Positions 1-23,681 of a DNA stretch of 23,681 nucleotides are shown piece after piece (positions within the stretch are counted from its first letter, which is position 1; each line of letters begins with the position of its first letter). Source of the stretch: Prasinococcaceae sp. CCMP 1430 (lineage: Eukaryota > Prasinodermophyta > Palmophyllophyceae > Prasinococcales > Prasinococcaceae); the NCBI GenBank assembly GCA_013416795.1, contig RQSC01000028.1:795057-818737 (forward strand), read 5' to 3'. Made by a program: the position numbers and the translations under genes. The notes under the pieces were generated by a model that was given only the letters and a program-made list of their open reading frames with translations, was not told the DNA's origin and did not search any database.

Positions 1-1684
1 GCGAGGCGGCCGGTCGGCGCGCGGGCGAAGCCGAGCGCCGCGCGGCGGCGGCCGAGCAGCGCGCGCTCGAGGCCGAGGCACGGCTTGCCGCCGTCGCCGC
101 CGAGAAGAAGCGCGTTGAGGGGGAGCTGGAGCGATCCACGGTGGGCCACCGCGCGGCCCTGAGCCGGGCGCTGCTGCGCGAGGCCGCGCTGGAGCGCGAC
201 GCGCAGCGCGCCGCGCTGCAGGCCGAGGCGCCGCGCGTTGGGCGCGTCAGTGTGCAGCGGCAGGGCGCGTCGCTCGTCGAGGTGTGGGAAGAGGGCACCG
301 CGCATCGCGCGCTCGAGGCGAGGACGGCGGCTCTTGCAGATGAACGTGCGGCCATCGAGCGCGCGCGCAAGGCGCTGAGGAAGCGCCACCTGCCACCCCC
401 GGCTGCCGGCGCGTCCTCCGGGGCCGCCGCGGCCGCCGCTGCGGCCGAGAAGGCCGCGAGCGGCGAGACAGCACTGCGCGACGCCGAATTCTTGGCAGCG
501 GATGCGCTGGTGACGGCGCGCCTGGAGACGCTGCGCAAGCAGGAGACCGCGCTCGCACGCGAAAAGGAGCGGCTAGAGGCAGAGAAAGTCGCGCACATTC
601 GTGAGCTGCGCCGGCAGCGCGACGAGGATGCGAGCAGGCTGGGAAGCCTTGGGCACGCCCTCGGTGCGGACCCGGCGAGCCCGCGGTACGTGCTGAACCG
701 GTTGCTCGGCAAGGGTGGCTTTTCGGAGGTTTTCAAGGCGTACGATCTCGCGAGCCTTGGCGACGTCGCGGTGAAGGTCCACCAACTCGATGCCAACTGG
801 TCCGAGGAGCGCAAGTCCTCGTACGTGCGGCACGCCGTGCGCGAGTATCACATACACAAGGCCATGGAGCATCCGAACATTTGCGAGCTGCGCGACATCT
901 TTGAGGTGGATGCAAACACATTTGCCACCGTGCTGGAGCACTGCCCCGGTGGCGATCTCGATAGCCATCTGAAGGCTTCGGCCGGTGGGGTCCTGCCCGA
1001 GCGCGAAGCGCGCGCGATTATCGTCGCGGTCTTCTCCGGGTTGCTCTACCTCGCCGACCGGGAGAAGCCCATCATCCACTACGATTTGGTACGATGCGAG
1101 CTGCCCGCTTGCGCACGCACCGCATCGATGCACAAGCACGTCCTGAGCGACCGCGCACTGCCTGGTGTGCTAATCGTCGCCCGCCCGCCCCAATCCCATG
1201 CCGTCGCCGCCACCCACAGAAACCCGGAAACATCCTCTTCAGCGCCGATGGACAGGTCAAAATCACAGACTTTGGTCTGTCAAAGATCATCGAGGACAGC
1301 AGCGCCACCAGCATGGAGCTCACCTCGCAGGGCGCGGGGACTTACTGGTACCTGCCGCCGGAGTGCTTTGACACGGCGCGCAGACCCAAAGTCTCGTCCA
1401 AGGTGGACGTGTGGTCCGCGGGCGTCATCCTGTATCAGATGCTCTTTGGCCGACGGCCTTTTGCGCACAGCATGAGCCAGGAAAGCATCCTCCGTGACGA
1501 TGCCATACGCAAGGCCGGGTCCCTCGAGTTTCCCGACACTCCAAAGGTGTCACAGGCCGCGAAGGACCTCATCACGCGATGTCTGATCCGCGACCAGACA
1601 GCTCGCCCAGACATGAAGATGGTGGTCACAGATCCTTACCTCGATTACTCAAAACTTTCGGCCTCGCAGCTGAAGAGCAAGTGA
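1..1684 (+). CDS. TLK: Tousled-like serine/threonine kinase (5' partial, two exons visible)
   Basis: Nuclear Ser/Thr kinase; in plants and animals TLKs phosphorylate the histone chaperone ASF1 and support chromatin assembly. The frame is open from base 3, so the N-terminus lies outside the window. Visible residues 1-220 are Ala/Glu/Arg-rich coiled coil, as expected for a TLK. The kinase domain runs from about residue 229 to 505: glycine loop GKGGFSEV, catalytic Lys258 in VAVKVH, catalytic loop HYDLKPGN (residues 359-366, the TLK variant with Tyr in place of Arg), DFGLSK at 379, then TSQGAGTYWYLPPECF, a TLK signature. Exon 1 ends at 1088, and a 131-bp GT-AG intron (1089-1219) splits HYDL|KPGN in phase 0. 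Exon 2 is 1220-1684, ending TGA. It is convergent with the C2 gene. Identity is secure; the start is unknown. Confidence 0.95.
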
Positions 1685-5137: not shown

Positions 5138-8100
5138 TCACACGCCGAGCCTCGCGAGCGCCGCGGCGGCGGCCTCCTCCGGCGAGCGCTTGGGGTTGAG
5201 CGCGCCCCGGCCGAAGTGGTCCGCGATGACGGAGAAGGCCGCCTGGCCGTCAGAGGCGTTGGCGAGCTGCTGGAAGAACTTGTCGTGGTCACCCGCCTCG
5301 GCCTGCAGCGCGCGCTGCACCTCGCGCACGGTGCGGTGCGCTGGGGCGCACAGCGGGCATTCGTCCGCTTCAGCGATGCCGAAGCCGCCGCCTCCAGCGC
5401 CGCCGCCCAAACAGCGCGCGTGGTACGAGTGGCCGCACACGAAATGCGTCGCAGGCAAGTCGAGCGCGCCCTGGCAGGACGCGCAAGACGCGTTCTGAAA
5501 GATGCGCGCACGCCCGCGTAGCTCCGCCACCTCGGCGCGCATGGCGGTCGCCTCGTCGCGGTAGCGACGTGTGGCCGCAATGTCCTCCGCCGCCGCTGCC
5601 GACTGGCGCTCCAACAGGCCGCTCAGAAATGGGCGCACAGCGCCGAGAGTAATGAGCTTGTTTCCCGACAGCAGGCGCAGCGCCTCGAGCGGCGGCACCG
5701 CGCCGCTGGACTCCGCGCTGGCCAGCGCCTCCGCCGCAGCGTCCTCGCACGCTCCCGCACCTGGGCTGCCCAGGTACTGCAGAACGGCGCGCCACACTGC
5801 CGCCACGGCCGATTCCGTGGCCGACGCGGCCGACGCAGCACGCTTGGCGTAGTCAACCACCGCCTGCGGCCCGTGGTGGGGCGCTGGCGAGGCGATGATG
5901 ACCGCCAGCGCCTCGGAGAACAATCCCATGCGCTCACACAGTAGTACCGAGCCCTCGACGAATCCATGCAGACGACAGAGCACCAACGCCGCCTCGGCAT
6001 CGTACCGCGGCTTGCCACCGGGCGGCCAGCTTGAGCGAAGTAGGGTTGTCACCTTGGCGAGACGTTCCTCCGTCCTCCCGAGCCCGTCGTTTCTGCCCGT
6101 CCTACGCTCCGACTCCTTATCCGCCATTTCCTCCGCTGCGTCCTCATCGCCAGTACCGCCCAAGTAGAGCTCCAGCAAGGTGTTGTACACGGCAGGGGGT
6201 TGAGCAGGCTGATCCTCGCCGCCCTCGCCGGCGGAGGCCGCACTATTCACGACAAACTCGTAAAAGAACATGAGCGCGCGCGGCTGCTCGACGAAGAGGT
6301 GGGCAAACTCCTCCGGCGAGGCGCGCCCATCGCCTGAGCCCGTGCAGAGCGAGGCCAACGCGGCGGTGGCGGCCTCGGGCCGCGCGTCCACCAGGGCCTT
6401 GCCGTAGCGCTTCACGGCTCCCACTGCGTCCACGAGGTCGAGACGCGCGATGAAGGCAAGCGCCTCGTCGTAGTGCTCGAGGTCCTCGAGTAAGATGCGC
6501 AGCTGCCATTGGGCTTCTCCCGCAGACGCGGCGACCTGAAGCGCGTGCTCGTGATAGCCTGCGGTACTGAGCACGCCGATGGCCGTTTCGTGGTCGAAGC
6601 CAAACGGCGCACCCGGTGCGGTGGCACGGTCGACAAAGGCGCTCAGCTTCTCGGCGTCGCGCAGTTTCGTGTAGCAATTCAGCAGCAAAGTGGTGTGGTC
6701 AGGCGTGGCAAGCTCACCACCAACCTCGTGCAGGCGTTCGAGATAGGTCGTCAGAGCGTGGATGCGTTGCGCCTCGAGGTACTTTCTGATGACGTACGAT
6801 GGCGCTAGGTGGCCGATGGTCTTCTCGTACTGCGTCATGGCGCCGTCGTAGTCGCGCCGGCCATAAAGGTAGTCACCATAGCGGCGATAGACCGTCGCGG
6901 TGGCGGCTGTGGGCTCCCCCACCTCGTCGAGCGTTAGCGGCACGGCGTGCGTATACTTGTGCCGCCGGCACAAACCCTCGATGCGCGATGCGACGTCCAT
7001 CTCCTCCGAGGGTGCACGGGGCCTTGCGGGCGAGCCCGTAGGACCAGCGGCGCCGTCATGGGCATTGGCACTCCCCGCCACGATGCTCCGCGCGGGCGAG
7101 GCCGTCGCCGCCGGTGCCGGTGCCAGTCCTAGGTCGACGCCGACGAGGTTTCCCGCCGTCGGGGCGGCGGCCGTTGCGAGCGTCGAAAGAAGCGAGGCCA
7201 CCGGTGTGGCGTATGCGCCGCTCAGCGGCGCGCCCGCGGAGTCGACGGCAATCTTCCCGCCCGTCACTGGCGTCCGCCTTGCCAGCGGCGACGTAAAGAG
7301 CTGCCTCGGGCACTGGCCGAACTCGCTGATCTGTGCCTCCATGCCCGTCCGCTCCACCGGATCAGACACGGCATCCAAGTTGACGCTGCCGTCGTACGTC
7401 AGCGGATGAAAGAGGTTGTCCGCCCGCATAGCTGCCTCGCCACGCTGCTTGTGGCCGAAGATGAGGTCAATCCACTCATGCAAGTGCGCGCTCACGTGCT
7501 CACTCTCGAGAGCCTCCCTATTTTTCGCGATGAAGTCCGAGGGTGAGTCTGCCCACGGCGGCAGCACGACGTCGCCCACGGCCTCACCATTCTGCCGACG
7601 GCCGAGCGGCAGCGCCGCCGAGTTGAGCAGAAATGCGCCCGGCGCCGCTGCTCCGACGGCCGCGGTCGCACCTGAGCCTGTCGAGGGTGCCGCGGCAGCG
7701 AAAAACTCGGGCACCAGCTCCTTCAGGTCGGCGGGATTGGACAGCACGGAGCGCCAGCTCTCCGCAACCGAGCAGAAGAGTCGGTCAGGCGCATCAAAGC
7801 GACCGTTCTGAAGGCGCAGCATGTGCGCCGGCGCGCTGCGAACCATCCAGTAGAGCACGTAGCCTGGCGTGCTGTAGTGAGTGCCGTACAAATACGGCGC
7901 CGTGCGCACGCCGGGCCCGCTGCCTCGCGGCATCTGTTCCATGCGACGGCGCAATGTCGCGAGCCGCTGCTGGTTGAGCGCGCCAACTGGCTTGCTCAGG
8001 TCGCGAAAAGTCGCTTTGTTTGTCGTGTCGAGTGTGGACGATTCGTAGTCAGCGACCACCCAGGGAAACACCGGCCACTGCGACAGGTCGTTCGTCGAGC

Positions 8101-9259
8101 GCCCCGCCACCAAGTTCAGGTAGCTCAGAAAGTCGAAGTTCGAGATGGCGCCAGCACGCCACGCAGCGACGGTCCGCGTGAGCCACTGGTCCCCGCCCGC
8201 TGGGTCAAAGACTGCCGCAGCGGCTCGCGAGCCAAGTGGCGAGTCCTTGGCAAGCGCTCCCGCGGCGGCACGCTCGGCGAGCGCTGCGAGCGCCGCGGCG
8301 GCGTCCCCAGCTGAGCGGAACTCGAACAGCGCGCTCGCTCCGAATGCCTCGCCAGGCGCCGCCGTCAGGAAGTACGCTTCGAGCGCGCGCGGCCGGTGGC
8401 AGACGCGGCGCGGCGCAACAGCGCCGACGGCCCCCAGTGGGCGGCAGCGCGCCGGAGATGACTCTGCGAGATTGTGCAGCGGCTGGAAGTACATGTTTTT
8501 GTCGGTGATCACCAGGATGCCGGGCTCGCGCACGAGCGGCGTCAACTGCGCAATCACCAGGACGCGATGGCGCGCAGGCACACATGCGCATCAGAGTCAG
8601 CATTGGCATGAGCGAGCGCCCGGGCGCTCGCAACGGCGCAACGTCTACACGCGCCGCACCCCGACGCGGCGCGGTTTGCGCACCTGCACCGCGCGGCTCT
8701 GCAGCAGGATCCGCTCTGAGAACGATCGCAGCTGCGACATGTCAAAGGTCGCGGCTTCCTCGACGGCATCGGCAACGGCCGCGACGTCGGCCTCGCGCTG
8801 CGCCGGCTCGTCCTGCGCCCAAGCGTCCACCAGCGCGCGCAGCTTGCCAAGGAGCTGCGCCGGTTGCGCGTACGCGAGCGCCACGCGGTAGCGGCTTGGT
8901 GAGGAGTCGGTTTCGTACGGCGAAGCGCGCCCCTTGCCCCCACCCGCGGAGATGCGGGTGGCTCGTCGCGCGGTGAACTCGATCGCGCCATCGGCCGCCT
9001 CTTGCAGGTCGCCCACGGCGCGCAGTGACACCTTGAGAACCGCCTGCGACGGCGCGGCCGCCTCGGGCTCGAAGAAGAGGTTGTGTGTGCCCAGGCGCAC
9101 GCGCCCCTTGCAGCGCTGCGCTGCGGGCGCACCCGCGCCCGCACCCGCCCGCGTGACGTCGAGCTGCGCGATGAAGTCCGTCAGGTAGCGCTCACCCTCG
9201 TCGAGGCATAGGTAGGTGAAGCTGCGGCCCTGTGGGCGCGCAAGCGTCGACGACGCCAT
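5138..9259 (-). CDS. FAN-type GRAM/PH-BEACH protein fused to the VPS11 C-terminal half (two exons, 1327 aa)
   Basis: Predicted endolysosomal trafficking protein. ATG at 9259 opens MASSTLARPQGRSFTYLCLD, matching the FAN (NSMAF) N-terminus, followed by a GRAM/PH-like region (LGTHNLFFEPE). A 138-bp GT-AG intron (8546-8683) joins AVQ|LTPLVREPG in phase 0, exactly at the FAN PH-BEACH. BEACH spans about residues 313-612 (WPVFPWVVADYES, TFRDLSKPVGALN, YGTHYSTPGYVLYWMVR, LQNGRFDAPDRLF, LHEWIDLIFGHKQRG, FHPLTYDGSVNL). After a roughly 100-residue Ala/Pro/Gly/Ser linker, residues 711-1327 are VPS11: YGDYLYGRRDYDGAMTQYEK, TIGHLAPSYVIRKYLEAQRI, DHTTLLLNCYTKL, RING CASC...CGHSYHARC...CPLC (1213-1258), and SVIADHFGRG near the end. 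Neither the FAN WD40 nor the VPS11 N-terminal propeller is present. Exon 2 (8545-5138) is one uninterrupted frame. The domain calls are secure; single-transcript status is inferred. Confidence 0.92.
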
Positions 9260-9413
9260 CGGCCCCGCCGGCGTGCCCACGTTCCCCCCACCCCCAACAC
9301 CTTTCCCCCCACCACCCCCACCACCCACACCCGCACCACGCGGAACCGCCGCCGCCGGCCCCGCGCCCGACGAGGACAGGGCCACCAGCAGCAAGCCCCG
9401 CCCGGCGTTCGTC
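9260..9413. promoter_or_regulatory. 154-bp divergent promoter with a C-rich/G4-prone tract
   Basis: Separates the ATG of the FAN-VPS11 gene (9259, minus) from the first usable ATG of the half-receiver CCT gene (9414, plus). From 9283 to 9337 the plus strand is almost pure C with A/T breaks (runs of 6, 5, 6, 5, 3 and 3 C). The minus strand, which is the FAN-VPS11 leader, therefore carries closely spaced G-runs able to form a G-quadruplex. Read on the plus strand, the same tract followed by CGAGGACAG (9370-9378) also looks like a polypyrimidine tract plus splice acceptor, so part of it may be intronic for the CCT gene. Confidence 0.6.
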
Positions 9414-10223
9414 ATGATGAGCTCGCAGTGCGACCAGGCCAAGGTGCGCCGCTCGGAGGCGCTCGGCGCGCTGCGCTTCCTGTCCAAGCCGGTGGCCGCC
9501 GCCGACCTGCAGAAGGTCTTCGCCCAGCTGGCGGCCGGCGGCATGGACACGCGCGCCGTCGCCGAGGCGGCCGCCGCGGCGGGCGTGGAGATGGTGCCCA
9601 TCAAGCGCTGCCACTCGAGCGAGGACGTGACCGTGTCGCTGCCGCTCGCCGTGTCGCGGCTGGCGCCGACGAGCGCCATCGACGCGGCGGCGCCCACCGC
9701 CGGCCGCGGCGCGTTCCACGCCTTCACGCAGCCCAAACCCGTCGTCAGCGGCCCGCCGCCCATGGGTGCGCCGCAGGCGCTCACCGCGGAGCAGGTCGCG
9801 GCGCTCGTGTGCTACCACCAGCAGCAGAGCAAGCAACGGAATCACGCGCAGCCGCAGGCGCCGGTGGGGCACCTGCAGCAGCAGCAGCAGCGCGCCGGCG
9901 CGTGCTCCACGGGCACCGCCAGCGCGAGCACGGCGCCGAGCTCGGCGTGCGCCGGCCCGTTCATGGCGCGCATCAGCTGCAACCCGGTGCCCCAGAGCCA
10001 GCGGCGCGCGGTCGCGCTCGAGAAGTACAGGCAGAAGCGCAAGACGCGCTGCTGGGACAAGAAGGTGCGCTACGAGAGCAGGCAGCGCGTGGCGGTCAAC
10101 CGCCCGCGCGTGACGGGCCGCTTCGCCAAGCGCAGCGGCTCGGACTCGGACACCACGGACGTCACGCCGGCCCCCGCCGAGGCCGCCGCCACCGCGGGGC
10201 CGGAGCCAGCAACGAAGGAGTAG
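9414..10223 (+). CDS. CCT-domain protein with the C-terminal half of a receiver (pseudo-response-regulator-like)
   Basis: Likely nuclear transcriptional regulator. From ATG 9414 the protein is 269 aa. Residues 197-240 form a clear CCT domain: ALEKYRQKRKTRCWDKKVRY then SRQRVAVNRPRVTGRFAKR, as in CONSTANS, TOC1 and plant PRRs. The first 35 residues plus the preceding codons (PAFVMMSSQCDQ...EALGALRFLSKPVAAADLQK) match strand 4 to helix 5 of a receiver domain, including the conserved Lys in SKP. Strands 1-3 and the phospho-acceptor Asp are not encoded between 9260 and 9413, nor on this strand farther upstream. A poly-Gln run and a low-complexity middle separate the two parts. Either the receiver is truncated, or an upstream exon ends at the acceptor CGAGGACAG (9370-9378). 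CCT is certain; the PRR origin is a good inference. Confidence 0.85.
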   Translation: MMSSQCDQAKVRRSEALGALRFLSKPVAAADLQKVFAQLAAGGMDTRAVAEAAAAAGVEMVPIKRCHSSEDVTVSLPLAVSRLAPTSAIDAAAPTAGRGAFHAFTQPKPVVSGPPPMGAPQALTAEQVAALVCYHQQQSKQRNHAQPQAPVGHLQQQQQRAGACSTGTASASTAPSSACAGPFMARISCNPVPQSQRRAVALEKYRQKRKTRCWDKKVRYESRQRVAVNRPRVTGRFAKRSGSDSDTTDVTPAPAEAAATAGPEPATKE

Positions 10224-10619
10224 GGACGCCCCGCCGCCCCTCCCGTGTACCATAGCAAACGACAGGCGCACGCGAGAGCCCGCCGCGGCCGCGCAGTGCC
10301 GCGAGCGAAGCCGCCCTCTTTTAACATACGTAGCACGAGATCAACGCAGTCGCCGCGGCCGCCCGCGGCCGGCGCCGCCGGGCGCGTTGCATGTCCGAGG
10401 GCGGGCTGAGTCCTGCTCTGCTTCATGGACTCTACTAGCGCGGCGGGGTGCTGCCTCGGGCGTGCGGTCTTGCGAGCGTGCGAACGTGCCCTTGCGAGTG
10501 CCCAGCGACTTGCTCGGGGCGGTCCCTCGCCCTCCCCTCCCCCGCGCCGCGCCGCGCCGCACCGCGTTGCCCAGCTCGCACTCCCTCGCCCGCTCCTCAA
10601 GCTCCCACTCCCGCTCGCG
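10224..10619. other. Intergenic region between the CCT and bromodomain genes
   Basis: 396 bp between two same-strand genes, so it holds the CCT 3' UTR and the bromodomain gene's promoter and leader. Visible: an A/T-rich patch (TCTTTTTAACATA-like, 10316-10328) in otherwise GC-rich DNA, a self-complementary GCCGCGGCCGCCCGCGGCCGGC stretch near 10350-10375, and pyrimidine-rich DNA just before the ATG at 10620. An earlier in-frame ATG at 10425 gives a Cys/Arg/Pro-rich leader that does not look coding. Confidence 0.45.
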
Positions 10620-12034
10620 ATGGTGTTCACGCTCAAGCTCAAGCTCGGCAAGCGCAAGGCGGGCGACGACGGCGCGCCGCCGGCCGCCGGGGCGGCGCCC
10701 GCGGCGTCGCGCGCCCGGCGGTGCCGTCGGTGGACGCGGCGCTGAGCGCGGCCGAGCAGCAGCGCCAGTTCTACATGCAGGCGAACCGCGACGCGGAGGA
10801 GCGGCAGCGGGCGGAGGCCGAGCGCCTCGCGCGCGAGCAGGAGGAGGTGCTGAGGCGGGCCGCTGCGGCGGCCGCCGAGCCGGAGGTCTCAGAGCAGACC
10901 TCGCAGAAAGCGAGGGGGCGGTCGGGGGGGCGCCGCGGACCTCGGGCGCGCCCCGCGCCCTCGCCGGCGCCGAGGGCGCCCGCTGCGCCCAAGCCGCAGC
11001 GCGACCGCGGCTTCAAGGCTGAGCGCGCCGCCGCCGTCATCGCGTCGCTCGCACGCAAGGACAAGTCGTCGGTGTTCCTCAAGGAGGTGCGCGCTGAGGA
11101 CGTGCCGGGGTACTACGACGTCATCAAGGAGGCGATGAGCTTCGATACGATTCGTGCCAAGTTCAAGAAGGACGCCTACACGACGTGGCAGGAGGTGAAG
11201 GACGACGTGGATCTCATGTGCAACAACGCGATGTACTTCAACGCGCCCAGCACTTTCTACCACACCGCGGCGAAGACCATCTATGAGGCAGCGCAGAGCC
11301 AGTTCAAGAACTGTGCCGGCAGGGCGCTGCCTGTGCGCCGGGGCGCGTGCCTGTGGGCGGGGGATCACACGCCCGCGCCCAATCCGCTCGCGGCAGAGGT
11401 GGGGACGGGAGCGGCGGGGGTGACGGCCACTGGCGATGACAGTGTGACCGAGCCGCTCGATGCTGGGGCGACCGGCGGCGGCAGCGACCGGCCGCAGGCG
11501 GCAACGCCGGAGCCGTCCACGATGGGTCCGGCGATGTCACAAGACACAATGGCAGCTGATGCTCAGGGCGGCGGGGCGGCGGGCTCGGCAGCCATCGACG
11601 GCGAGGGCGGTGCCAGGCAGCAGAATGCCGACGGCGCCCCGAGTGCGGCTGCCGCAGCGACGGCCGTGCCGCTCGTGTTCCGCTCGAGCAAAGCTGGCAC
11701 TGCCATCGATTTCCGCACAAGGCTCGACAAGCGAGAAAACCGGCGCCGCACGTACCCCAAGCCACCGAGTGTCTTGAGGACCAAGGCGCCCACCAACAAG
11801 GGGCCCGCCGCAGCCGAGCAGATGCGCGTGCACCAGGCGGAGAAGGCTGAGAAAGCGGCGCTCGAGCGCGCATTGTCCGGAGAACGCGTGGCTGCGCCCG
11901 ACCCCGCGGCGCGCGCGGCGCTAGCGCGAGTCGAGGTGTACGAGCATTCGCTCATGCGCTTCGCGCGAGGGATGGGAAGCGTCGTGCAACGAGTAGCGGA
12001 GGAGATGAGGGCCCGCGTGGCAGGGGCGAAATGA
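10620..12034 (+). CDS. BRD7/9-like bromodomain protein (one frame break)
   Basis: Acetyl-lysine reader, probably nuclear; BRD7/9 homologues are SWI/SNF subunits. ATG 10620 starts MVFTLKLKLGKRKAGDD, a basic start that fits better than the earlier ATG at 10425. The frame must change near 10706-10746 to reach VDAALSAAEQQRQFYMQ, a Glu/Arg/Ala coiled region. The bromodomain is encoded at about 11035-11310: FLKEVRAEDVPGYYDVIKEA, MSFDTIRAKFK, then LMCNNAMYFNAPSTFYHTAA with the ligand-contacting Asn of FNAPSTFY. An Ala/Gly-rich linker and a basic C-terminal region (TRLDKRENRRRTYPKP, then a helical end) follow, with the stop at 12034. The break is either a 2-nt difference in the CG-rich run at 10708-10716 or a 41-nt GT-AG intron (10706-10746); length is about 470 or 457 aa. 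It is followed by the convergent cyclin gene. Confidence 0.85.
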
Positions 12035-14295: not shown

Positions 14296-15495
14296 ATGAG
14301 CGCGCAGGAGGCGCTCTCCGCGGGCGCGCTCCTCGCGTCGGGCACGGTCAACACGCTGCTGAACGCGCGCGTGCTCGGGCTGGGCTGCTACGCGGCCGAG
14401 AGCCTGCTGCAGACGGCGGCCAAGCTGGCCGCGCAGAGCGCCGTCGTGGGGGTGCGCGCGCTGCGCTCCCGCGGCGCGGCGCGCGCGCGCTCGCAACGTC
14501 ATCTGCCTCCGCCGCGCGAGCGGCGGCGGCGGCGGCGGCGGCGGCGCGTCATGGCGCACGCGCGCGCAACTCGTGGGCTCGGCGGTGTGCGACCTCGTTG
14601 GCTTCCTGCTGTATCAACAGGGGCTCGTGCGGTGCGGCCCGGCGCTCTATCAGGTGGCGTGCAGCGCGCAGGTGGTATTTGGCGTCGCCTTCTCGGCGGC
14701 GTTTGTCGGTGCCCGGTACTCGCTCGGGCAGCTGGTCGCAGTGGCGTGGGTCGTGGGGTCAATCGCAGCTAGGGGCGCGCTCGCGGCGAGAAAGGCGGGC
14801 GCTGCGGACGAGGGCGACGCTGGGGCAGTCACTTTCGGCATCCTCATGGTGCTGCTCGGCTGCGCGGTCTATTCGGCCGGGGCGGTGCTCGTAACGCGCA
14901 TGAACAGGGACTGCGTGCGAGCCGGGGAGACGCCGCCCAGCGGGTCCGACGTGTCTGCGGCGAATGGCGTCGTAGGCCTTTGCTTCATTCTCGTGTACCT
15001 CGCGGCCTACACCGTGCCCCGCTGGACTGAGCTCGTGACCGACGTCCAGGCAGCGTCCGGCGTGACCCCATGGGAGGTGCTGAGCACCCACGCCATCTAC
15101 CTGGCGTGCTACGTCGTGCACAACGCGGTGAGTGCGCGCGCGACCGCGCGCACGCACGCGATTGTGCGTGCGCGCACGTGTGCGCCTGCGTGTGTGCGTC
15201 CTCCTGACTCGCACACCCGCCCTGTGCCGGCGATTGCACGTGCGTGCAGAACTATTGGAACTGCGTCGCGAGCGCCGGCGTCACGACCGCACAGTGCGCG
15301 AACGCCGTCCGCACTGTTTCCGTCGCCCTCGTCTCCGCCGCGGTCATGTGCCGCGGCGACACGCCTGCGGAGTGCCTGGACGCCGGATCGATGGCGTGCG
15401 CTCTGGCGACAGCAGGTGGCGGCGCGATGTACGCGCTCGCGACCTCCCGCGCGAGCGCGACCAAGGCCACGCTCGTCGCGAAGAAGGAAAAGTAG
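14296..15495 (+). CDS. DMT-superfamily transporter, SLC35F6-like (two exons, one frame break)
   Basis: Integral membrane transporter of the drug/metabolite (SLC35/nucleotide-sugar-like) superfamily; substrate unknown. ATG 14296 opens MSAQEALSAGALLASGTVNT, matching SLC35F6-type TM1 (GTVNTLLN). About ten hydrophobic segments are visible, including VGSAVCDLVGFLLYQQGL (ALCD-type TM), ALYQVACSAQVVFGVAF, TFGILMVLLGCAVYSAGAVL and FILVYLAAYTV. A 122-bp intron (15128-15249, donor GTGAGT, acceptor CGTGCAG) joins HNA|NYWNCVASAG in phase 0; the last exon adds two TMs and a lysine-rich tail ending KKEK. Between TM2 and TM3 (14470-14560, CG- and GGC-repeat DNA) the frame shifts by one base; no GT-AG pair there restores frame. 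One surplus base would give about 358 aa, close to SLC35F6 length, so an indel is likelier than an intron. The end of the last exon is duplicated in the palindrome. Confidence 0.75.
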
Positions 15496-17929
15496 CAGGG
15501 CACGCCCCAGCCACCAGCAGAACGCGTGAAATCAAGAGACGCAACGGCCCAACGCACATACGCGCACGCAAGCGCGCGCACGCGCACGCGCACGCGCGTG
15601 CCCACGTGCATATCTCGCAATGATAATACAGGCATGATACACACTCTGCGCGCGAGGGCGCCGGCATTCTCAACGGCCGCCCACGCCCGCCGCGCTGACG
15701 GCGGCCATGGCAGCGATGACACCGAGGTCTGTGCGCGCGCGGAGTGCTCGGAGGGCGCTCGGATCGACTGTGGCGGGTGCGTCGAGCGTTGCCGCTGTCG
15801 CCACGGCCTCCTCGTCGGCGGCAGCCTCGTCGGCGGCACGCATGGCCGCGGCGCGCAGCGAGAGGATGGCGGAGCGCACGTCGCGCCCGTCCTCGCCTTG
15901 GGAAGTGGCTGGCTGGCGCTGCTCTTTGTCGGCGTCTGTCGTTGCTGCCATTTGTTGTTGTTGCGCTGCACCGTTTGGCACGCGGTCTGGCGAGCCCGGA
16001 GAGCGGCAGCGCTTGCGCGAGATAGCAGCCGCATCGATGTCGCCCACGTGCTGGAGTACGCGCGCCGCACCTGGGCTGTACGCCGCAGCGCCCCACCGGG
16101 CGCGAGCCCGCTCGGCCGCCCCCCGCCAGCCAATTGCGGCGATAGGATCTGCGCACGCACCCTGGGGAGCGCTGTCCGCGGCGCAGATGTACACCTCGTA
16201 CCTGTACGCGCCCTCGCCCAGCTCGTCGCCCGCCGCGCGCTCCGCAGCCACCTCGGCTCGCCAATCGTCGATGACGGCGTGCAGATCCGCTTTGGCGTGG
16301 GGCGCAAGGTCGTGGACGACGTTTCCTGACGCAGAGACGAGGTCGATCTCTTCCCCGTCGAGGTCCGAGGCGGGCGCAAGCATCAGCAAGCGCACGTCAC
16401 GTAGCGCGCGGGCTGCGGCGACGACCCGGGCGCGTACGACAATCCTCCCGTCGGCGCCGCGGGTGGCGATGACGTCGGCGCGGACGCGGTGCTCCTCCGT
16501 CAGCTGCTGTCGTGCGACGTCGTCTCCGCTCGCGCTGTCCTTGCTCGCCTCGCCTGACTGCGGCGAGCCCCCTTTTTCAGCATCTGCACCGACATGTTCG
16601 CCGCTTCGCTCACCGTCGCACATGGACGCGAGCAACGACGCGGCGTCGGCAAGCATGGCCTTCTTCGCCGCCGCCTGCTTCTCGCCCTCCCAGAGCTCCC
16701 GCGTGAGCTCCTCCCTTCGCTCTTCGAGCGCAGCGGAAAAGAGGGCCTCGCCGGCCGCGGCACGCGCGGCGGCAGCGCTAACCCCGGTGCCGCCCACGCC
16801 GACACTGGCGCCGCCGGGCTGCGGGCCACGCGCGCCAGTCAGGTCGACGAGCGTGACCGCCGGCAGAGCCTCGTCCTGGGAGCGCGCCTCGCCCTTCGCA
16901 CCCCTGAGCACAAGCAATTGCTGCGTGCCGTCACCCGCGGGCGCCCTGAAGTCGCCTGGGAGCAGGGCCGCCACGCGTTCGCCGAGCGCCATCAGCGGCA
17001 CCAGCGCCTCCGCGCAGTAGAGCGTCGCCGTCGAGTGCATGTCGTCGTGCGCGGCGGCGACCACACGCGCCCTGCCGCCCAGCAGCGCCGCCGCGAGCGA
17101 AGCGGGGCGCGGCACTGACCCCGGTCGCGCGCGTGCGAGCTCGCGTCCAGCGCCGTAGCGCGTGACAGCATTGCCCTCGCCGTCCGCGATGACCACTTCC
17201 ATCGTGTCCGCGCCGGGACCCGCCCCTGCGCGCGGCGGCAGGACGCACGCCACGGCGCCCTCTGCGGTAGCGGCAGCTGCGAGGCCGTCGCCGCCGACTG
17301 CGAGCGCGGCGCGCCGCCAGCACGCATCATCACCGCCCTCGTTGAGGACGACCGCAGCGATCGGAACGGCGAGCGCTCCTGGCGTAGCGCCGGCGCTGCG
17401 AGCGCGCGTGGCTACGAGCGCCACGGGCGGGGCACCTGTGCACCCGCCGCCCGCGCAGAGCACGCGCGCGCCGCGCCCAAGCTGCACTACGAACGACTGC
17501 CAGCGACCGCGCGCGCCGCGCGCGATGACCAGGAGGGACACGGACGCGTCCGCATCCGTCTCGCCCGCCTCGTCCCCTTTCGCCTCGTGACCGCCCTCGA
17601 ACACGACGGCGGCCGCTGGCCCATCGAGCACGAACGCCCTCACCGCACGCGCCCCTGGCGGGGCTGCGGCGATCGCGACTGACTCCCAGCGCACGCCGCC
17701 GCATCGCGCGTCGTCGGAGCGCGCTTCGGCGCGCACGGCGCCCAGGACGAGCTCTCCGGTGCGCTTGTCGAGCGCAACGCCGTACGGCGCCTCCACCCAG
17801 CTCTGGCCGTCCTCGACGACGGCCGCCGCGAGCAGCGACAAACTCTCCGGGCACACGCGCGCTCCGTACTCGGGGCGGCCGCCGCTCACCTCAACCAGCG
17901 ACTCCGACGCCTCACTCACGCACGCCGCC
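15305..17929. repeat. Left arm of a 2,625-bp inverted repeat
   Basis: Every position i pairs with 35930-i in the right arm at the places checked: both inner and outer ends, and by identical translations of long frames in several reading frames on opposite strands. It contains the end of the transporter's last exon and nearly all of the 771-aa minus-strand gene. Confidence 0.95.
15496..15669. other. Convergent 3' region, transporter / FANCB-like gene
   Basis: 174 bp with an alternating CGCACG tract (about 15555-15605) and a short A/T-rich patch (AATGATAATACAGGCATGATAC). It lies within the left palindrome arm and is repeated in reverse at 20261-20434. Confidence 0.5.
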
Positions 17930-17985
17930 ACGCCCGTCCGCGCGTCCACGACGCGCGCTCCGCCGGCGTGCACGAAGCGCGCCAT
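15670..17985 (-). CDS. 771-aa protein, possibly FANCB/FAAP100-like
   Basis: Function not established. The single exon starts at ATG 17985 inside the palindrome spacer (MARFVHAGGARVVDARTGVA) and ends TGA at 15670. The N-terminal 390 residues are beta-rich, propeller-like repeats (FVLDGPAAAVVFEGG, MEVVIADGEGNAVTRYGAG). Then come LLPGDFRAPAGDGTQQLLVL and AVTLVDLTGA, an arrangement also seen in FANCB (Fanconi core complex), followed by a charged helix (ERREELTRELWEGEKQAAAK) and a beta segment (GRIVVRARVVAAARALRDV). The C-terminal tail is low-complexity with basic KRCRSPGS and QQQQ runs. The order propeller, helical stalk, beta domain fits FANCB/FAAP100, but similarity is weak. The gene's own upstream region is absent because the inverted copy begins 15 bp beyond its ATG. 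Confidence 0.7.
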   Translation of the reverse strand: MARFVHAGGARVVDARTGVAACVSEASESLVEVSGGRPEYGARVCPESLSLLAAAVVEDGQSWVEAPYGVALDKRTGELVLGAVRAEARSDDARCGGVRWESVAIAAAPPGARAVRAFVLDGPAAAVVFEGGHEAKGDEAGETDADASVSLLVIARGARGRWQSFVVQLGRGARVLCAGGGCTGAPPVALVATRARSAGATPGALAVPIAAVVLNEGGDDACWRRAALAVGGDGLAAAATAEGAVACVLPPRAGAGPGADTMEVVIADGEGNAVTRYGAGRELARARPGSVPRPASLAAALLGGRARVVAAAHDDMHSTATLYCAEALVPLMALGERVAALLPGDFRAPAGDGTQQLLVLRGAKGEARSQDEALPAVTLVDLTGARGPQPGGASVGVGGTGVSAAAARAAAGEALFSAALEERREELTRELWEGEKQAAAKKAMLADAASLLASMCDGERSGEHVGADAEKGGSPQSGEASKDSASGDDVARQQLTEEHRVRADVIATRGADGRIVVRARVVAAARALRDVRLLMLAPASDLDGEEIDLVSASGNVVHDLAPHAKADLHAVIDDWRAEVAAERAAGDELGEGAYRYEVYICAADSAPQGACADPIAAIGWRGAAERARARWGAAAYSPGAARVLQHVGDIDAAAISRKRCRSPGSPDRVPNGAAQQQQMAATTDADKEQRQPATSQGEDGRDVRSAILSLRAAAMRAADEAAADEEAVATAATLDAPATVDPSALRALRARTDLGVIAAMAAVSAAGVGGR

Positions 17986-18000
17986 GCGCTCGCTCGCAAC
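17930..18000. other. 71-bp spacer of the inverted repeat, containing both copies' start codons
   Basis: Non-palindromic centre. On the minus strand it encodes the first residues of the left-copy gene (ATG 17985). On the plus strand an overlapping ATG at 17984 is in frame with the right copy. The match to the arms stops abruptly at A17930/C18000. Confidence 0.93.
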
Positions 18001-20260
18001 GGCGGCGTGCGTGAGTGAGGCGTCGGAGTCGCTGGTTGAGGTGAGCGGCGGCCGCCCCGAGTACGGAGCGCGCGTGTGCCCGGAGAGTTTGTCGCTGCTC
18101 GCGGCGGCCGTCGTCGAGGACGGCCAGAGCTGGGTGGAGGCGCCGTACGGCGTTGCGCTCGACAAGCGCACCGGAGAGCTCGTCCTGGGCGCCGTGCGCG
18201 CCGAAGCGCGCTCCGACGACGCGCGATGCGGCGGCGTGCGCTGGGAGTCAGTCGCGATCGCCGCAGCCCCGCCAGGGGCGCGTGCGGTGAGGGCGTTCGT
18301 GCTCGATGGGCCAGCGGCCGCCGTCGTGTTCGAGGGCGGTCACGAGGCGAAAGGGGACGAGGCGGGCGAGACGGATGCGGACGCGTCCGTGTCCCTCCTG
18401 GTCATCGCGCGCGGCGCGCGCGGTCGCTGGCAGTCGTTCGTAGTGCAGCTTGGGCGCGGCGCGCGCGTGCTCTGCGCGGGCGGCGGGTGCACAGGTGCCC
18501 CGCCCGTGGCGCTCGTAGCCACGCGCGCTCGCAGCGCCGGCGCTACGCCAGGAGCGCTCGCCGTTCCGATCGCTGCGGTCGTCCTCAACGAGGGCGGTGA
18601 TGATGCGTGCTGGCGGCGCGCCGCGCTCGCAGTCGGCGGCGACGGCCTCGCAGCTGCCGCTACCGCAGAGGGCGCCGTGGCGTGCGTCCTGCCGCCGCGC
18701 GCAGGGGCGGGTCCCGGCGCGGACACGATGGAAGTGGTCATCGCGGACGGCGAGGGCAATGCTGTCACGCGCTACGGCGCTGGACGCGAGCTCGCACGCG
18801 CGCGACCGGGGTCAGTGCCGCGCCCCGCTTCGCTCGCGGCGGCGCTGCTGGGCGGCAGGGCGCGTGTGGTCGCCGCCGCGCACGACGACATGCACTCGAC
18901 GGCGACGCTCTACTGCGCGGAGGCGCTGGTGCCGCTGATGGCGCTCGGCGAACGCGTGGCGGCCCTGCTCCCAGGCGACTTCAGGGCGCCCGCGGGTGAC
19001 GGCACGCAGCAATTGCTTGTGCTCAGGGGTGCGAAGGGCGAGGCGCGCTCCCAGGACGAGGCTCTGCCGGCGGTCACGCTCGTCGACCTGACTGGCGCGC
19101 GTGGCCCGCAGCCCGGCGGCGCCAGTGTCGGCGTGGGCGGCACCGGGGTTAGCGCTGCCGCCGCGCGTGCCGCGGCCGGCGAGGCCCTCTTTTCCGCTGC
19201 GCTCGAAGAGCGAAGGGAGGAGCTCACGCGGGAGCTCTGGGAGGGCGAGAAGCAGGCGGCGGCGAAGAAGGCCATGCTTGCCGACGCCGCGTCGTTGCTC
19301 GCGTCCATGTGCGACGGTGAGCGAAGCGGCGAACATGTCGGTGCAGATGCTGAAAAAGGGGGCTCGCCGCAGTCAGGCGAGGCGAGCAAGGACAGCGCGA
19401 GCGGAGACGACGTCGCACGACAGCAGCTGACGGAGGAGCACCGCGTCCGCGCCGACGTCATCGCCACCCGCGGCGCCGACGGGAGGATTGTCGTACGCGC
19501 CCGGGTCGTCGCCGCAGCCCGCGCGCTACGTGACGTGCGCTTGCTGATGCTTGCGCCCGCCTCGGACCTCGACGGGGAAGAGATCGACCTCGTCTCTGCG
19601 TCAGGAAACGTCGTCCACGACCTTGCGCCCCACGCCAAAGCGGATCTGCACGCCGTCATCGACGATTGGCGAGCCGAGGTGGCTGCGGAGCGCGCGGCGG
19701 GCGACGAGCTGGGCGAGGGCGCGTACAGGTACGAGGTGTACATCTGCGCCGCGGACAGCGCTCCCCAGGGTGCGTGCGCAGATCCTATCGCCGCAATTGG
19801 CTGGCGGGGGGCGGCCGAGCGGGCTCGCGCCCGGTGGGGCGCTGCGGCGTACAGCCCAGGTGCGGCGCGCGTACTCCAGCACGTGGGCGACATCGATGCG
19901 GCTGCTATCTCGCGCAAGCGCTGCCGCTCTCCGGGCTCGCCAGACCGCGTGCCAAACGGTGCAGCGCAACAACAACAAATGGCAGCAACGACAGACGCCG
20001 ACAAAGAGCAGCGCCAGCCAGCCACTTCCCAAGGCGAGGACGGGCGCGACGTGCGCTCCGCCATCCTCTCGCTGCGCGCCGCGGCCATGCGTGCCGCCGA
20101 CGAGGCTGCCGCCGACGAGGAGGCCGTGGCGACAGCGGCAACGCTCGACGCACCCGCCACAGTCGATCCGAGCGCCCTCCGAGCACTCCGCGCGCGCACA
20201 GACCTCGGTGTCATCGCTGCCATGGCCGCCGTCAGCGCGGCGGGCGTGGGCGGCCGTTGA
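17984..20260 (+). CDS. Inverted duplicate of the FANCB-like gene (probable assembly copy)
   Basis: The 758-aa frame from ATG 17984 is identical to the minus-strand gene from ACVSEASESLVEV to the stop. Only the first residues differ (MRSLATA in place of MARFVHAGG...GVA), because the spacer is read in the opposite direction. There is no independent upstream sequence. If the inverted repeat is real, this is a recent, sequence-identical second gene with an altered N-terminus; if it is an assembly fold-back, the gene does not exist. I favour the artefact because the arm ends at an N. Confidence 0.4.
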   Translation: MRSLATAACVSEASESLVEVSGGRPEYGARVCPESLSLLAAAVVEDGQSWVEAPYGVALDKRTGELVLGAVRAEARSDDARCGGVRWESVAIAAAPPGARAVRAFVLDGPAAAVVFEGGHEAKGDEAGETDADASVSLLVIARGARGRWQSFVVQLGRGARVLCAGGGCTGAPPVALVATRARSAGATPGALAVPIAAVVLNEGGDDACWRRAALAVGGDGLAAAATAEGAVACVLPPRAGAGPGADTMEVVIADGEGNAVTRYGAGRELARARPGSVPRPASLAAALLGGRARVVAAAHDDMHSTATLYCAEALVPLMALGERVAALLPGDFRAPAGDGTQQLLVLRGAKGEARSQDEALPAVTLVDLTGARGPQPGGASVGVGGTGVSAAAARAAAGEALFSAALEERREELTRELWEGEKQAAAKKAMLADAASLLASMCDGERSGEHVGADAEKGGSPQSGEASKDSASGDDVARQQLTEEHRVRADVIATRGADGRIVVRARVVAAARALRDVRLLMLAPASDLDGEEIDLVSASGNVVHDLAPHAKADLHAVIDDWRAEVAAERAAGDELGEGAYRYEVYICAADSAPQGACADPIAAIGWRGAAERARARWGAAAYSPGAARVLQHVGDIDAAAISRKRCRSPGSPDRVPNGAAQQQQMAATTDADKEQRQPATSQGEDGRDVRSAILSLRAAAMRAADEAAADEEAVATAATLDAPATVDPSALRALRARTDLGVIAAMAAVSAAGVGGR

Positions 20261-20625
20261 GAATGCCGGCGCCCTCGCGCGCAGAGTGTGTATCATGCCT
20301 GTATTATCATTGCGAGATATGCACGTGGGCACGCGCGTGCGCGTGCGCGTGCGCGCGCTTGCGTGCGCGTATGTGCGTTGGGCCGTTGCGTCTCTTGATT
20401 TCACGCGTTCTGCTGGTGGCTGGGGCGTGCCCTGCTACTTTTCCTTCTTCGCGACGAGCGTGGCCTTGGTCGCGCTCGCGCGGGAGGTCGCGAGCGCGTA
20501 CATCGCGCCGCCACCTGCTGTCGCCAGAGCGCACGCCATCGATCCGGCGTCCAGGCACTCCGCAGGCGTGTCGCCGCGGCACATGACCGCGGCGGAGACG
20601 AGGGCGACGGAAACAGTGCGGACGG
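18001..20625. repeat. Right arm of the 2,625-bp inverted repeat
   Basis: Reverse complement of 15305-17929 with no mismatch found in the stretches compared. It ends directly before the N at 20626; beyond the N the sequence no longer matches the left side (20628 C would need T to pair with 15302 A). Confidence 0.95.
20435..20625 (-). pseudogene. Duplicated 3' fragment of the transporter's last exon
   Basis: Mirror copy of 15305-15495, encoding on the minus strand VRTVSVALVSAAVMCRGD... through the lysine-rich end and stop. It lacks the rest of the gene because the arm ends at the N, and is explained wholly by the inverted repeat. Confidence 0.85.
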
Positions 20626-20626
20626 N
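20626..20626. other. Single ambiguous base N at the end of the palindrome arm
   Basis: The only N in the window. It sits exactly where the inverted repeat stops and where the truncated frame of the CWF19L2-like gene starts, which suggests a contig join or unsized gap rather than one uncertain base. Confidence 0.95.
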
Positions 20627-22531
20627 GCGAGCGGCTCTTGGCGGCGGGCAGAGCGCCCGCGGGGCGGCGAGCGACGCGACGACGACCGCGGTGGACGAAA
20701 TCGCGCGCGCGATGACGATCGGCGCGTGCCCGACGGAGACAGGCGCGAGCGGGGTGGCGGCGGGGGGCGCGGCGCGGAGCTGCGCAGCAGGCCCGGGCTA
20801 GGGGCGAAGCCCCTGTCCGAGGAGGAGCAGTGGGAGCGCGACCAGCAGCCGCGTCCACGCAGTGGCGGCGTGGCAGCAAACGCATTCGCGAGCGATGGGT
20901 CGTTCATGGCGCGCTTCACCGCGGCGGCGGGGGGTGGCGGCAAGGATCAGGGCGCTGCGGCAGGGGAGAACGCGAAGGCCTCCGCCGCCTTGCCAGCCAC
21001 TGCACCAGGGGAGGAAGCACGCAGCGCCCTGGCGGCGCTCGCTGCCCTCGCACCGGGCGGGGCGGGAGTGGGCTCGGCCGGGACCGTGCCAGGCCCGACC
21101 CCGGCCGCCAAGGCGACAGAGCGAACGGCCCCTGTCCCCGCCCCTGCGCCCGCCCCTGCGCCCGCTCCCGTGCCCGTGCCCTCGCCCGCGCCCAGTGCCA
21201 CTCCCGCGTCTGCTCCGGCCGCGAGTGGCAACGCGTCCGTCGCCGCCATGCTGCGCGCCAAGCTCGGTGGCAGGCCGATGGCCAAACCGGCGGCGCCTGC
21301 ACAGCTCCCCGCGGCGCCGGCGCAGCCGAAGGTCACGCCTGTGGCGGCACCCGCGGCTGTCGCCCCGGGCCCGCAGGAGCGACAACCCAAGCAGCTCCCC
21401 GTCATCGACAACAGCGGCCGCATGGCCGACTACTCGGGCGCCGCGCAGGGGGGCGTGAACGCCGCCACAGGCCGCGCGCAGCCTAAGCGCGTAGAACGCT
21501 ACGGCGAGGACGGACACAAAGCGCGATACTTTGCCTCGGATGACGCCGAGGGCAAGGATCTGGCCACACTGCGGGCGGCTGAGCACAAACGCCGCGCTGG
21601 AGATCTCGACGAGAACATGGCGCGCAACATCGTCCGCGGACACCAGCGCTACAAGGGGCCGACGTCCGCCGACGACGAGTACGACTACGACATGGGCGTG
21701 GAGGCAGGCGACCCGCGCACGTCCAAGCGCGCGCGCCGCGACGGCAACTTTGCTGCATCAGCCGCGCGCGCGCGCGGCATTGCCGACGCACGTTCGCTGG
21801 AACGCGCGGCGGCGAGCGACTGGCTGCGCGCGACGCCGCATCTGGTGCTCGCCGCGAGCGAGCGCGCGTACCTCATGCTTGCGCCGGCGACCGACCGCGT
21901 TGTGGAGAACCACTGCTACGTAGTGCCGATGGAGCACTCCGGCGCGACGCGCTCTCTGGACGACGGCACGTGGGAAGACATGCGAAACTTCAAGAAATGC
22001 CTCATGCGTATGTGGGGCGAGCGTGGCAGGCAGGTGGTCTTCTTGGAGACTGCGATGAAACTCGACAAGAAGGGCGCGCCGCCGAGGTGCTACGTGGAGT
22101 GTGTGCCTGTCTCCGCGGAGGCGTTTAGCCTCGCACCAATGCATTTCAAGCGTGCCATCGACGAGGCGGAGGACGAGTGGTCGACACATGCCGCCAAGCG
22201 CCTCATTGATACGAGCGGCAGGGGGCTGCGCGCGAGCGTGCCGGTGGGTTTCGCGTACTTCCACGTCGAGTTCGGCCTGCGGCAAGGCTACGCGCACGTG
22301 ATCGATGACGAGCTGCGCTGGAAGAGGTCGTTCGGCCGCGACGTGCTCAAGGGTGCGATGGGCATCGAGGACAGGGGCGGGCGCAGGCCGAAGCCGAATC
22401 CTGCGCTCGACGCCCAAGCCGCCGCCAAACTCAAAGCGGTCTACGCCAAGTACGACTGGGTGCCGCAGCTGGCCGACGCCGCGAGGGCACGGGCGGGCGG
22501 CGCTCAGGCAGGTGGCAGCGGTGGTCCCTAG
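20627..22531 (+). CDS. CWF19L2: CWF19L2/CwfJ-like spliceosome-associated protein (5' partial)
   Basis: Homologue of CWF19L2/Cwf19, which acts in late pre-mRNA splicing and intron-lariat turnover. The frame is open up to the N at 20626 and begins with an Arg/Asp/Glu/Gly-rich stretch typical of the family's N-terminus, so the true start is missing; 634 aa are visible. A Pro-Ala repeat region (APAPAPAPAPVPVP) is followed by ASVAAMLRAKLGG, KRVERYGEDGHKARYFASDD, then the CwfJ C-terminal domain 1 (NHCYVVPMEHSGATRSL, VVFLETAMKLDKKGAP, CYVECVPVSAEAFSLAP) and domain 2 (FKRAIDEAEDEWSTHAAKRL, SVPVGFAYFHVEFG, YAHVIDDELRWKRSFGRDVL). The C-x2-C pair normally found at the start of CwfJ domain 1 is absent (AAASDWLRATPHLVLA). 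Stop at 22531; convergent with the racemase gene. Confidence 0.93.
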   Translation, partial: ASGSWRRAERPRGGERRDDDRGGRNRARDDDRRVPDGDRRERGGGGGRGAELRSRPGLGAKPLSEEEQWERDQQPRPRSGGVAANAFASDGSFMARFTAAAGGGGKDQGAAAGENAKASAALPATAPGEEARSALAALAALAPGGAGVGSAGTVPGPTPAAKATERTAPVPAPAPAPAPAPVPVPSPAPSATPASAPAASGNASVAAMLRAKLGGRPMAKPAAPAQLPAAPAQPKVTPVAAPAAVAPGPQERQPKQLPVIDNSGRMADYSGAAQGGVNAATGRAQPKRVERYGEDGHKARYFASDDAEGKDLATLRAAEHKRRAGDLDENMARNIVRGHQRYKGPTSADDEYDYDMGVEAGDPRTSKRARRDGNFAASAARARGIADARSLERAAASDWLRATPHLVLAASERAYLMLAPATDRVVENHCYVVPMEHSGATRSLDDGTWEDMRNFKKCLMRMWGERGRQVVFLETAMKLDKKGAPPRCYVECVPVSAEAFSLAPMHFKRAIDEAEDEWSTHAAKRLIDTSGRGLRASVPVGFAYFHVEFGLRQGYAHVIDDELRWKRSFGRDVLKGAMGIEDRGGRRPKPNPALDAQAAAKLKAVYAKYDWVPQLADAARARAGGAQAGGSGGP

Positions 22532-22728: not shown

Positions 22729-23681
22729 CTAGGCGACGCACTCGGCGATGGCCACCGAGAGCGAGTCCATTGCGTCCACGAGTGGCACCCCGCACGCGTC
22801 GCGCGGGCAGTAAGTGCCAATGTCGGTGCAGCCCAGCACGATCGCCTGGGCGCCTGCCGCCTCGAGCTCGCGCGCGGCGGCAGCGAGCACCTCGACCGCC
22901 TTGGTGCCGTCGGCAAGCACGCCCGTCTTTCCGGTGCCCACGCTCTCCACCGCCTCTTGGATGCGCGCCTGCGTGGTCTCCGTGGGGATGACCATCTCCT
23001 TCCCCCACAGCTCCATCTTGACTGTCAGCGTGGTCGCGAGGAGGCCGAGCGGCTTGCGGCCGTCGCTCTCGCATTTCTCGATGGTCTTGTTGACCATGTG
23101 GATGGTCTCCAGCTCGGGCACGTCCTCGCTCAGCTTGTCGAACCATTGGTGTGCGGTGCAGCACGGAAAGCAGACGTGCGTGCACCCATGCTCGTCGCGG
23201 AGGGCCTTCGTCCCGCGTAGCATGCTCACGTAGCACCCCTCGGGGTCGACGGAGCAGCGCGGCATCTCAAGGTCCGCCCACATCACCACGCGATCGGGGT
23301 CGGCGGCGTTGCCACCCAGCTTCGGGGCGCGCGCATCGTGCGCGAGTGCACCAGGGAGCCAGGGTGCGAGCGCGCCGCGGGAGCCCGCCGGGAGGGCAGG
23401 TAGCGTCAGCGCTTGGACGTGGGACGCGAGGGGTGGGGTGGGGGGTGGGTGGGGGGGACTCCTCAGGGAGAGGGGGCGGGTCGACCAATGCGCGCGCGCG
23501 ATGCAGATGCGCCACGGGAAGGGGATGCGTGCGTGGCGTCGTGGCTAACGCACCGCGGCAAGCCTCGCCATGAAGTCATCGTTGGTCACTGGGAACGCCC
23601 CGCCGAGCACGCCGACCTTGGGCACGCCCGCGCCCGCGCCCGCCGCCGTCGCCTCCGCCCCGCGCGGCAGGCAGCGCGCCG
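22729..23681 (-). CDS. Aspartate/glutamate racemase-family enzyme (5' partial, two exons visible)
   Basis: Cofactor-independent amino-acid racemase of the Asp/Glu/hydantoin racemase family; substrate uncertain. The first visible exon (window end to 23554) contains KVGVLGGAFPVTNDDFMARL, the family's N-terminal KVGVLGG strand. A 234-bp GT-AG intron (23320-23553, donor GTGCGT, acceptor CCGAAG) joins RLAA|LGGNAADPDRVVMWADLE in phase 0, matching the usual spacing to the VVMWSDP-type strand. The second exon (23319-22729) carries both catalytic cysteine motifs: FPCCTAHQWFD and VLGCTDIGTYCP. It ends ECVA-stop. The first cysteine motif reads CCTAH where CNTAH is usual. The start lies beyond the window. 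An alternative acceptor (near 23409) opens the same frame but leaves the wrong phase. Confidence 0.88.
23430..23457 (+). repeat. G-quadruplex-prone tract in the racemase intron
   Basis: G-runs of 4, 4, 6, 3 and 7 separated by single T residues. On the sense (minus) strand it is the C-rich polypyrimidine part of the racemase intron. Confidence 0.9.

Follow-up and report, generated by a model that had tools for sequence, protein, structure and literature searches.

A FAN-VPS11 fusion gene in a prasinococcalean alga, with PH and BEACH domains in place of the VPS11 propeller

Can a core subunit of the HOPS and CORVET tethers, which bring vesicles to dock on endosomes and lysosomes, exist in nature without its propeller, and with part of a BEACH protein in its stead? 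The question is raised by a locus of Prasinococcaceae sp. CCMP 1430 that lies within a stretch of 23,681 nucleotides (assembly GCA_013416795.1, contig RQSC01000028.1, positions 795,057 to 818,737), here called the window and numbered from its first letter. A sequence-only reading of this DNA had proposed that a single gene joins the front half of FAN (NSMAF) to the solenoid and RING of VPS11. To our knowledge, the molecular role of BEACH domains is a long-standing open question, and their ties to tethering have so far been indirect.

Our analysis indicates that the domain replacement in this core tethering subunit is real; each of the parts is known, and it is their combination that is surprising. 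We think it likely that the fusion is one gene encoding one protein, that this protein is the alga's VPS11 in HOPS and CORVET, and that its PH-BEACH part sits in the propeller's place. The architecture, its occurrence in two related genomes, its status as the only copy found, and the retention of most conserved residues can all be read from the sequences.

Gene model and domain content

The gene is encoded on the minus strand, and its two exons (9259-8684 and 8545-5138) give 1327 codons and a stop in one frame. Its features are as follows.

8684..9259, minus strand: exon 1, 192 codons, with the ATG at 9259 and the FAN N-terminal PH domain; ends taken from the frame and the GT-AG sites
8546..8683, minus strand: intron of 138 bp, GT...AG, phase 0
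5138..8545, minus strand: exon 2, an open frame of 3408 bp including the stop, with the second PH-like part, BEACH, linker, VPS11 solenoid, RING, and C-terminus
Within exon 1, minus strand: PH_FAN (PF25400; Pfam E 7.5e-11, 42.6 bits, cut-off 27)
7280..8164, minus strand: BEACH domain, residues 320-614 (PF02138; E 7.8e-103, 344 bits)
7004..7279, minus strand: linker, residues 615-706, rich in Ala, Pro, and Gly, with two conserved blocks
5141..7003, minus strand: VPS11 part without propeller, residues 707-1327, comprising solenoid, RING, and C-terminus (TPR_PEP5_VPS11, PF23356; E 5e-47, 161 bits)
5348..5485, minus strand: RING-H2 finger, residues 1213-1258, with eight C/H ligands
5195..5338, minus strand: VPS11_C (PF12451; E 2.4e-9, over its cut-off)

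This model bears out the proposal of one gene with a single phase-0 intron near its start; the protein reads ...SRAVQ up to the exon junction and LTPLVREPG... beyond it. Pfam and PDB matches agree with the proposed order of FAN PH and BEACH followed, in the same frame, by VPS11 solenoid, RING, and C-terminus, and the PDB sequences matched by exon 2 were neurobeachin (1mi1; 8.9e-81), LRBA (1.5e-76), and yeast Pep5/Vps11 (1.5e-10). The RING had been called C3HC4-type and needs correction, as the spacing of its ligands (C1213, C1216, C1229, H1231, H1234, C1237, C1255, and C1258) is C3H2C3, that of a RING-H2 finger. Pfam RING models scored under their cut-offs here.

Two missing propellers

The front half resembles FAN/NSMAF (lvsF, a small BEACH protein) in having an N-terminal PH_FAN, a second PH-like part, and BEACH, and it groups with green-lineage FAN; unlike FAN, it is not followed by a C-terminal WD40 propeller, and VPS11 stands there instead. 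The rear half resembles VPS11/Pep5, the core subunit of HOPS and CORVET, in its solenoid, RING-H2, and VPS11_C, and groups with green-lineage VPS11, but it is without the N-terminal propeller. Pfam listed no WD40 family for exon 1 or exon 2 at E values up to 1, so that the C-terminal propeller of FAN was not found. For VPS11 we built a profile from 16 VPS11 proteins and split it at Sphagnum residue 338 into a propeller and a solenoid hidden Markov model (HMM). On the fusion protein, the solenoid HMM matched with E 4e-173 and the propeller HMM had no match up to E 10.

The BEACH domain extends to about residue 614, and similarity to VPS11 begins at residue 707, which corresponds to about residue 339 of Sphagnum VPS11. 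From these boundaries and the lack of propeller matches, it follows that both parents have lost one propeller. FAN (NSMAF) is, by this comparison, cut just past BEACH and VPS11 just past its propeller, with a flexible linker of about 90 amino acids between them. The domain order thus points to replacement of the VPS11 propeller by PH-BEACH, rather than to the addition of a module, a loss that the sequence-only reading had missed.

This architecture was confined to three of the proteins we scanned. A total of 238 rows was covered, made up of the listed proteins from database searches with the full fusion (best 120 of 162) and with its VPS11 half (best 120 of 174), two frames of the window, and the spliced protein. 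A VPS11 solenoid, called at E below 1e-20, was present in 129 rows, or 128 proteins, since the window protein had been entered twice. Among the matches listed, all 125 other VPS11-solenoid proteins had the propeller (E 5.5e-5 in the weakest case, a partial Volvox sequence), and only the window protein and two database sequences, P0003 and P0004, were without it. The same three were the only ones among these matches to combine a FAN-type BEACH part with a VPS11 solenoid. In titles and abstract starts of the open-access literature, no BEACH-VPS11 fusion was described among the matches listed.

Copy number and partner genes

The genome searched comprises 24.5 Mb in 145 contigs and is not a closed assembly; searches were six-frame and exon by exon. 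A complete stand-alone VPS11 elsewhere, named by the sequence-only reading as one of two findings that would overturn it, was sought and not found in this genome. Sphagnum VPS11 gave two matches, both at the fusion locus (residues 339-628 and 686-969), and its residues 1-338, the propeller, had no match in the whole genome. The full VPS11 solenoid was likewise present at one locus, and the propeller family gave nothing over its cut-off genome-wide. Other solenoid matches, in one frame on contig C76, belong to clathrin heavy chain and not to a second VPS11, and a weak propeller match on C3, below the cut-off, is the BOP1 gene rather than a stray propeller.

For FAN, there was one PH_FAN match and three BEACH matches. 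One of the two further BEACH loci, on C79, is neurobeachin-type, with PH_BEACH and WD40 and no PH_FAN. The other, on C72 (785041-785700, L003), is a divergent BEACH open reading frame (ORF) without PH_FAN, for which Pfam gave no further domain at E 1e-5; by eye it looks similar to WDR81-type proteins. Neither was accepted as a second FAN, and a further FAN-type PH did not turn up in this genome. The case against a second FAN-type PH or VPS11 is strong, though not absolute for six-frame, by-exon searches of an open assembly.

Genes for the partners of VPS11 were found in the same genome. These include VPS18, VPS16, VPS8, and VPS41 (which keeps its own propeller), and an ORF with a Vps39_1 domain, which is VPS39 or its VPS3-type relative, no separate search having been made for VPS3. 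Sec1-family genes occurred in five places, four of them over the cut-off: VPS33 (VPS33A match, 1.7e-100) and Sec1-, Sly1-, and Vps45-like genes, the last with one internal stop. The alga therefore has the HOPS set and most of CORVET, with the fusion as the only VPS11 found.

The same join in other sequences

The join proposed between FAN and VPS11 recurs in both database sequences, which upholds the claim that the fusion is real. P0003 is 99 per cent identical, comes from another source (lgn, taken as Logan; contig of 4218 bases, 29 cluster members), and spans the join; it is probably genomic, as its sequence begins within the intron. P0004 (source ena; contig of 12,269 bases, nine members) is 78 per cent identical over 94 per cent and has the same join, so that the suggested look into related genomes was rewarded. 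It is continuous over the intron site, reading ...RAVQLTPLVREPG..., and its 78 per cent identity suggests that it probably comes from another, related species.

Between the window protein and P0004, BEACH (252/295 identical, 85 per cent) and the solenoid part (429/501, 85 per cent) are followed by the RING and end (95/117) and the second PH-like part (94/127). PH_FAN, with 69 of 107 positions identical (residues 83-191), is the least conserved folded part, and the linker is the lowest of all parts (43 of 88 aligned positions identical, with 12 gap columns, residues 614-703).

Could the join have been made during assembly or annotation, by uniting two genes? The feature that would favour such an artefact is a doubtful spot about 6 kb away, a perfect inverted repeat at window 15305-20626 with two 2625-bp arms and 71 bp between them. 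Its outer arm stops right before a single N at 20626, and an 889-aa ORF within it occurs twice, once per strand. The repeat itself probably reflects faulty assembly or a chimeric read, and less probably a real palindrome. Against an artefact at the join itself, the same join is present in P0003, from another source, and in P0004, at 78 per cent identity, and separate copies of the missing parts were not found in the genome. We therefore rejected misassembly, given P0003 and P0004, and regard an artefact of either kind as so improbable as to be negligible.

The open linker by itself is weak evidence for a single protein, because 1319 of 5000 base-shuffled linkers also remain open in this GC-rich DNA. 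The strength of the fusion claim comes instead from the second genome, that of P0004. The linker also bears on whether the two halves are made apart, through an inner promoter, processing, or linker cleavage. Its low complexity and its position as the least conserved part would suit that explanation, but two blocks within it, AYATPVASLL and SPARPRAPSEEMDVASR, are kept in P0004 and so conserved across both genomes. Moreover, the halves would both still be without propellers even if they were separate. We consider two products very unlikely.

Origin and conservation of the two halves

Quick maximum-likelihood trees were built for both halves from chosen rows (36 and 32), with some organism labels read from gene codes. 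In both trees the two fusion sequences group together (support 100) and nest among green-lineage proteins (supports 100 and 99). Placement on the chlorophyte side is weaker (91 and 81), and deeper placement is not settled by such quick trees. The VPS11 tree carries a further caveat, in that its sequences flagged as atypical in composition include those of the fusion. Vertical inheritance appears to hold for the two halves alike; gene transfer from beyond the green lineage was rejected, as each half groups with green plants and algae.

Of 145 conserved VPS11 columns and 155 conserved FAN columns, the window protein retains 122 and 141, and P0004 retains 122 and 134. The last VPS11 segment, which contains the RING, keeps 24 of 25. 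Taken with the comparisons given below, these counts suggest that the VPS11 half is remodelled, with the BEACH core, the middle of the solenoid, and the RING largely intact.

Several observations weigh against the fusion as the alga's VPS11, beginning with the doubtful inverted repeat described above. The precomputed Pfam lists lack PH_FAN and VPS11_C for P0004 and PH_FAN for P0003, and the first residues of both sequences are unlike exon 1. The stem branch of the fusion is 1.34 changes per site in the VPS11 half versus 0.71 in the FAN half, and given this long stem some VPS11 contacts may be altered. In leave-one-out comparisons, where the fusion and the left-out protein were counted on identical columns, the left-out VPS11 retained more VPS11 positions than the fusion in all 20 cases (101-106 versus 92-98, of 106-113), and the left-out FAN retained more FAN positions in 17 cases out of 20 (115-122 versus 115-123, of 123-133). 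Two VPS11 stretches are eroded: residues 707-781, beside the lost propeller (18 of 24 columns kept), and residues 1062-1180 (window 5938-5582; 13 of 24 kept), which may mark a contact changed after the propeller was lost. Finally, VPS8 is present and, by analogy with yeast CORVET, in which the Vps11 propeller binds Vps8, would be without that partner surface.

Proposed function

If the fusion acts as VPS11, its solenoid would pair with VPS18 and its RING would hold VPS39, giving it entry into HOPS and CORVET, and PH-BEACH would lie at the distal end, in the propeller's former position. Both this assembly and the part that BEACH would play in it are our inference. According to the available part of one yeast study (PMC9592082), the Vps11 propeller is distal, and its deletion leaves HOPS assembly and tethering in place, with no membrane fusion promoted. 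The available part of another (PMC11187117) reports that loss of the Vps11 propeller leaves CORVET able to assemble and tether, with Vps8 more flexible because that propeller binds Vps8. Since yeast HOPS and CORVET assemble and tether in this state, a VPS11 without its propeller would still make a usable core, with something missing from one of its ends. As far as the yeast construct is described in those parts, the algal VPS11 is like it in being cut at the same point just past the propeller; unlike the construct, which has nothing in the propeller's place and gives HOPS that does not promote fusion, the alga has PH-BEACH there.

PH-BEACH could then do two jobs, standing in for the propeller as a support of the complex and endowing the tether permanently with FAN's recognition of endosomes (RAB5-type early endosomes, or cargo tails). 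According to the available text of PMC11554844, human NSMAF is found together with RAB5A and RAB14 on early and sorting endosomes, and BEACH proteins have been proposed to be cargo-sorting adaptors. Because the fusion is the only VPS11 copy found, every HOPS and CORVET complex of the alga would be expected to carry a BEACH module.

The first of these jobs might be the only one, with PH-BEACH a mere support or spacer in the propeller's place and FAN activity irrelevant. Such a structural spare part would fit the yeast result that the propeller is needed for fusion and not for assembly or tethering (in the available part of that study), the status of the FAN PH as the least conserved folded part, and the deficit of conserved FAN columns in 17 of the 20 comparisons. 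It fits poorly with BEACH being conserved between the two genomes as well as the VPS11 half is, and with the 141 of 155 FAN-family columns kept, which a mere spacer should not need. We regard it as unlikely.

A BEACH protein at the Vps-C core has been reported elsewhere. In Toxoplasma, a BEACH protein (BDCP) is reported to bind TgVps11 and to be found in HOPS/CORVET with Rab5 proteins, and a PfVps16 pulldown recovered a BEACH protein (PMC12306165 and PMC12011295, in the parts available). The algal fusion is like this apicomplexan Vps11/Vps16 partner in bringing a BEACH protein to the Vps-C core, a likeness drawn at the level of BEACH; in the parts of those sources available, BDCP is a separate, bound protein, unlike the one chain of the alga. 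A partnership of BEACH proteins with the Vps-C core would here have been turned into a single chain. More tentatively, it is quite possible that BEACH is integral to every HOPS and CORVET complex in this algal lineage, replacing the propeller both structurally and as a reader of membrane or cargo, and that the Vps-C core is where FAN-type BEACH proteins work in general, apicomplexan BDCP-Vps11 being the two-protein version.

The only FAN and the only VPS11 found, fused in two related genomes, are strong evolutionary evidence of a shared workplace. The fusion points to BEACH proteins as direct collaborators of the docking machinery. It also suggests that natural loss of the propeller from a core HOPS/CORVET subunit, comparable to the yeast truncations, is feasible provided that the place is filled.

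Neighbouring genes and other loci

Other ORFs in the window are as follows.

965-1684, plus strand: ORF with a protein kinase domain
9216-10223, plus strand: stop-to-stop ORF with a CCT motif (PF06203, 1.7e-16), head to head with the fusion gene
10439-12034, plus strand: ORF with a bromodomain
20399-22531, plus strand: ORF with CwfJ C-terminal domains
22729-23544, minus strand: ORF with an Asp/Glu racemase domain

The CCT-motif ORF and the fusion gene may share a promoter region. Elsewhere in the assembly, two distinct RbcL proteins are encoded on the large contig C136 (L023, L024, and L025), in stretches of low GC (0.42 and 0.40), and a third copy there is interrupted by a run of N; these stretches are perhaps plastid-like DNA from two sources, inserted or misjoined.

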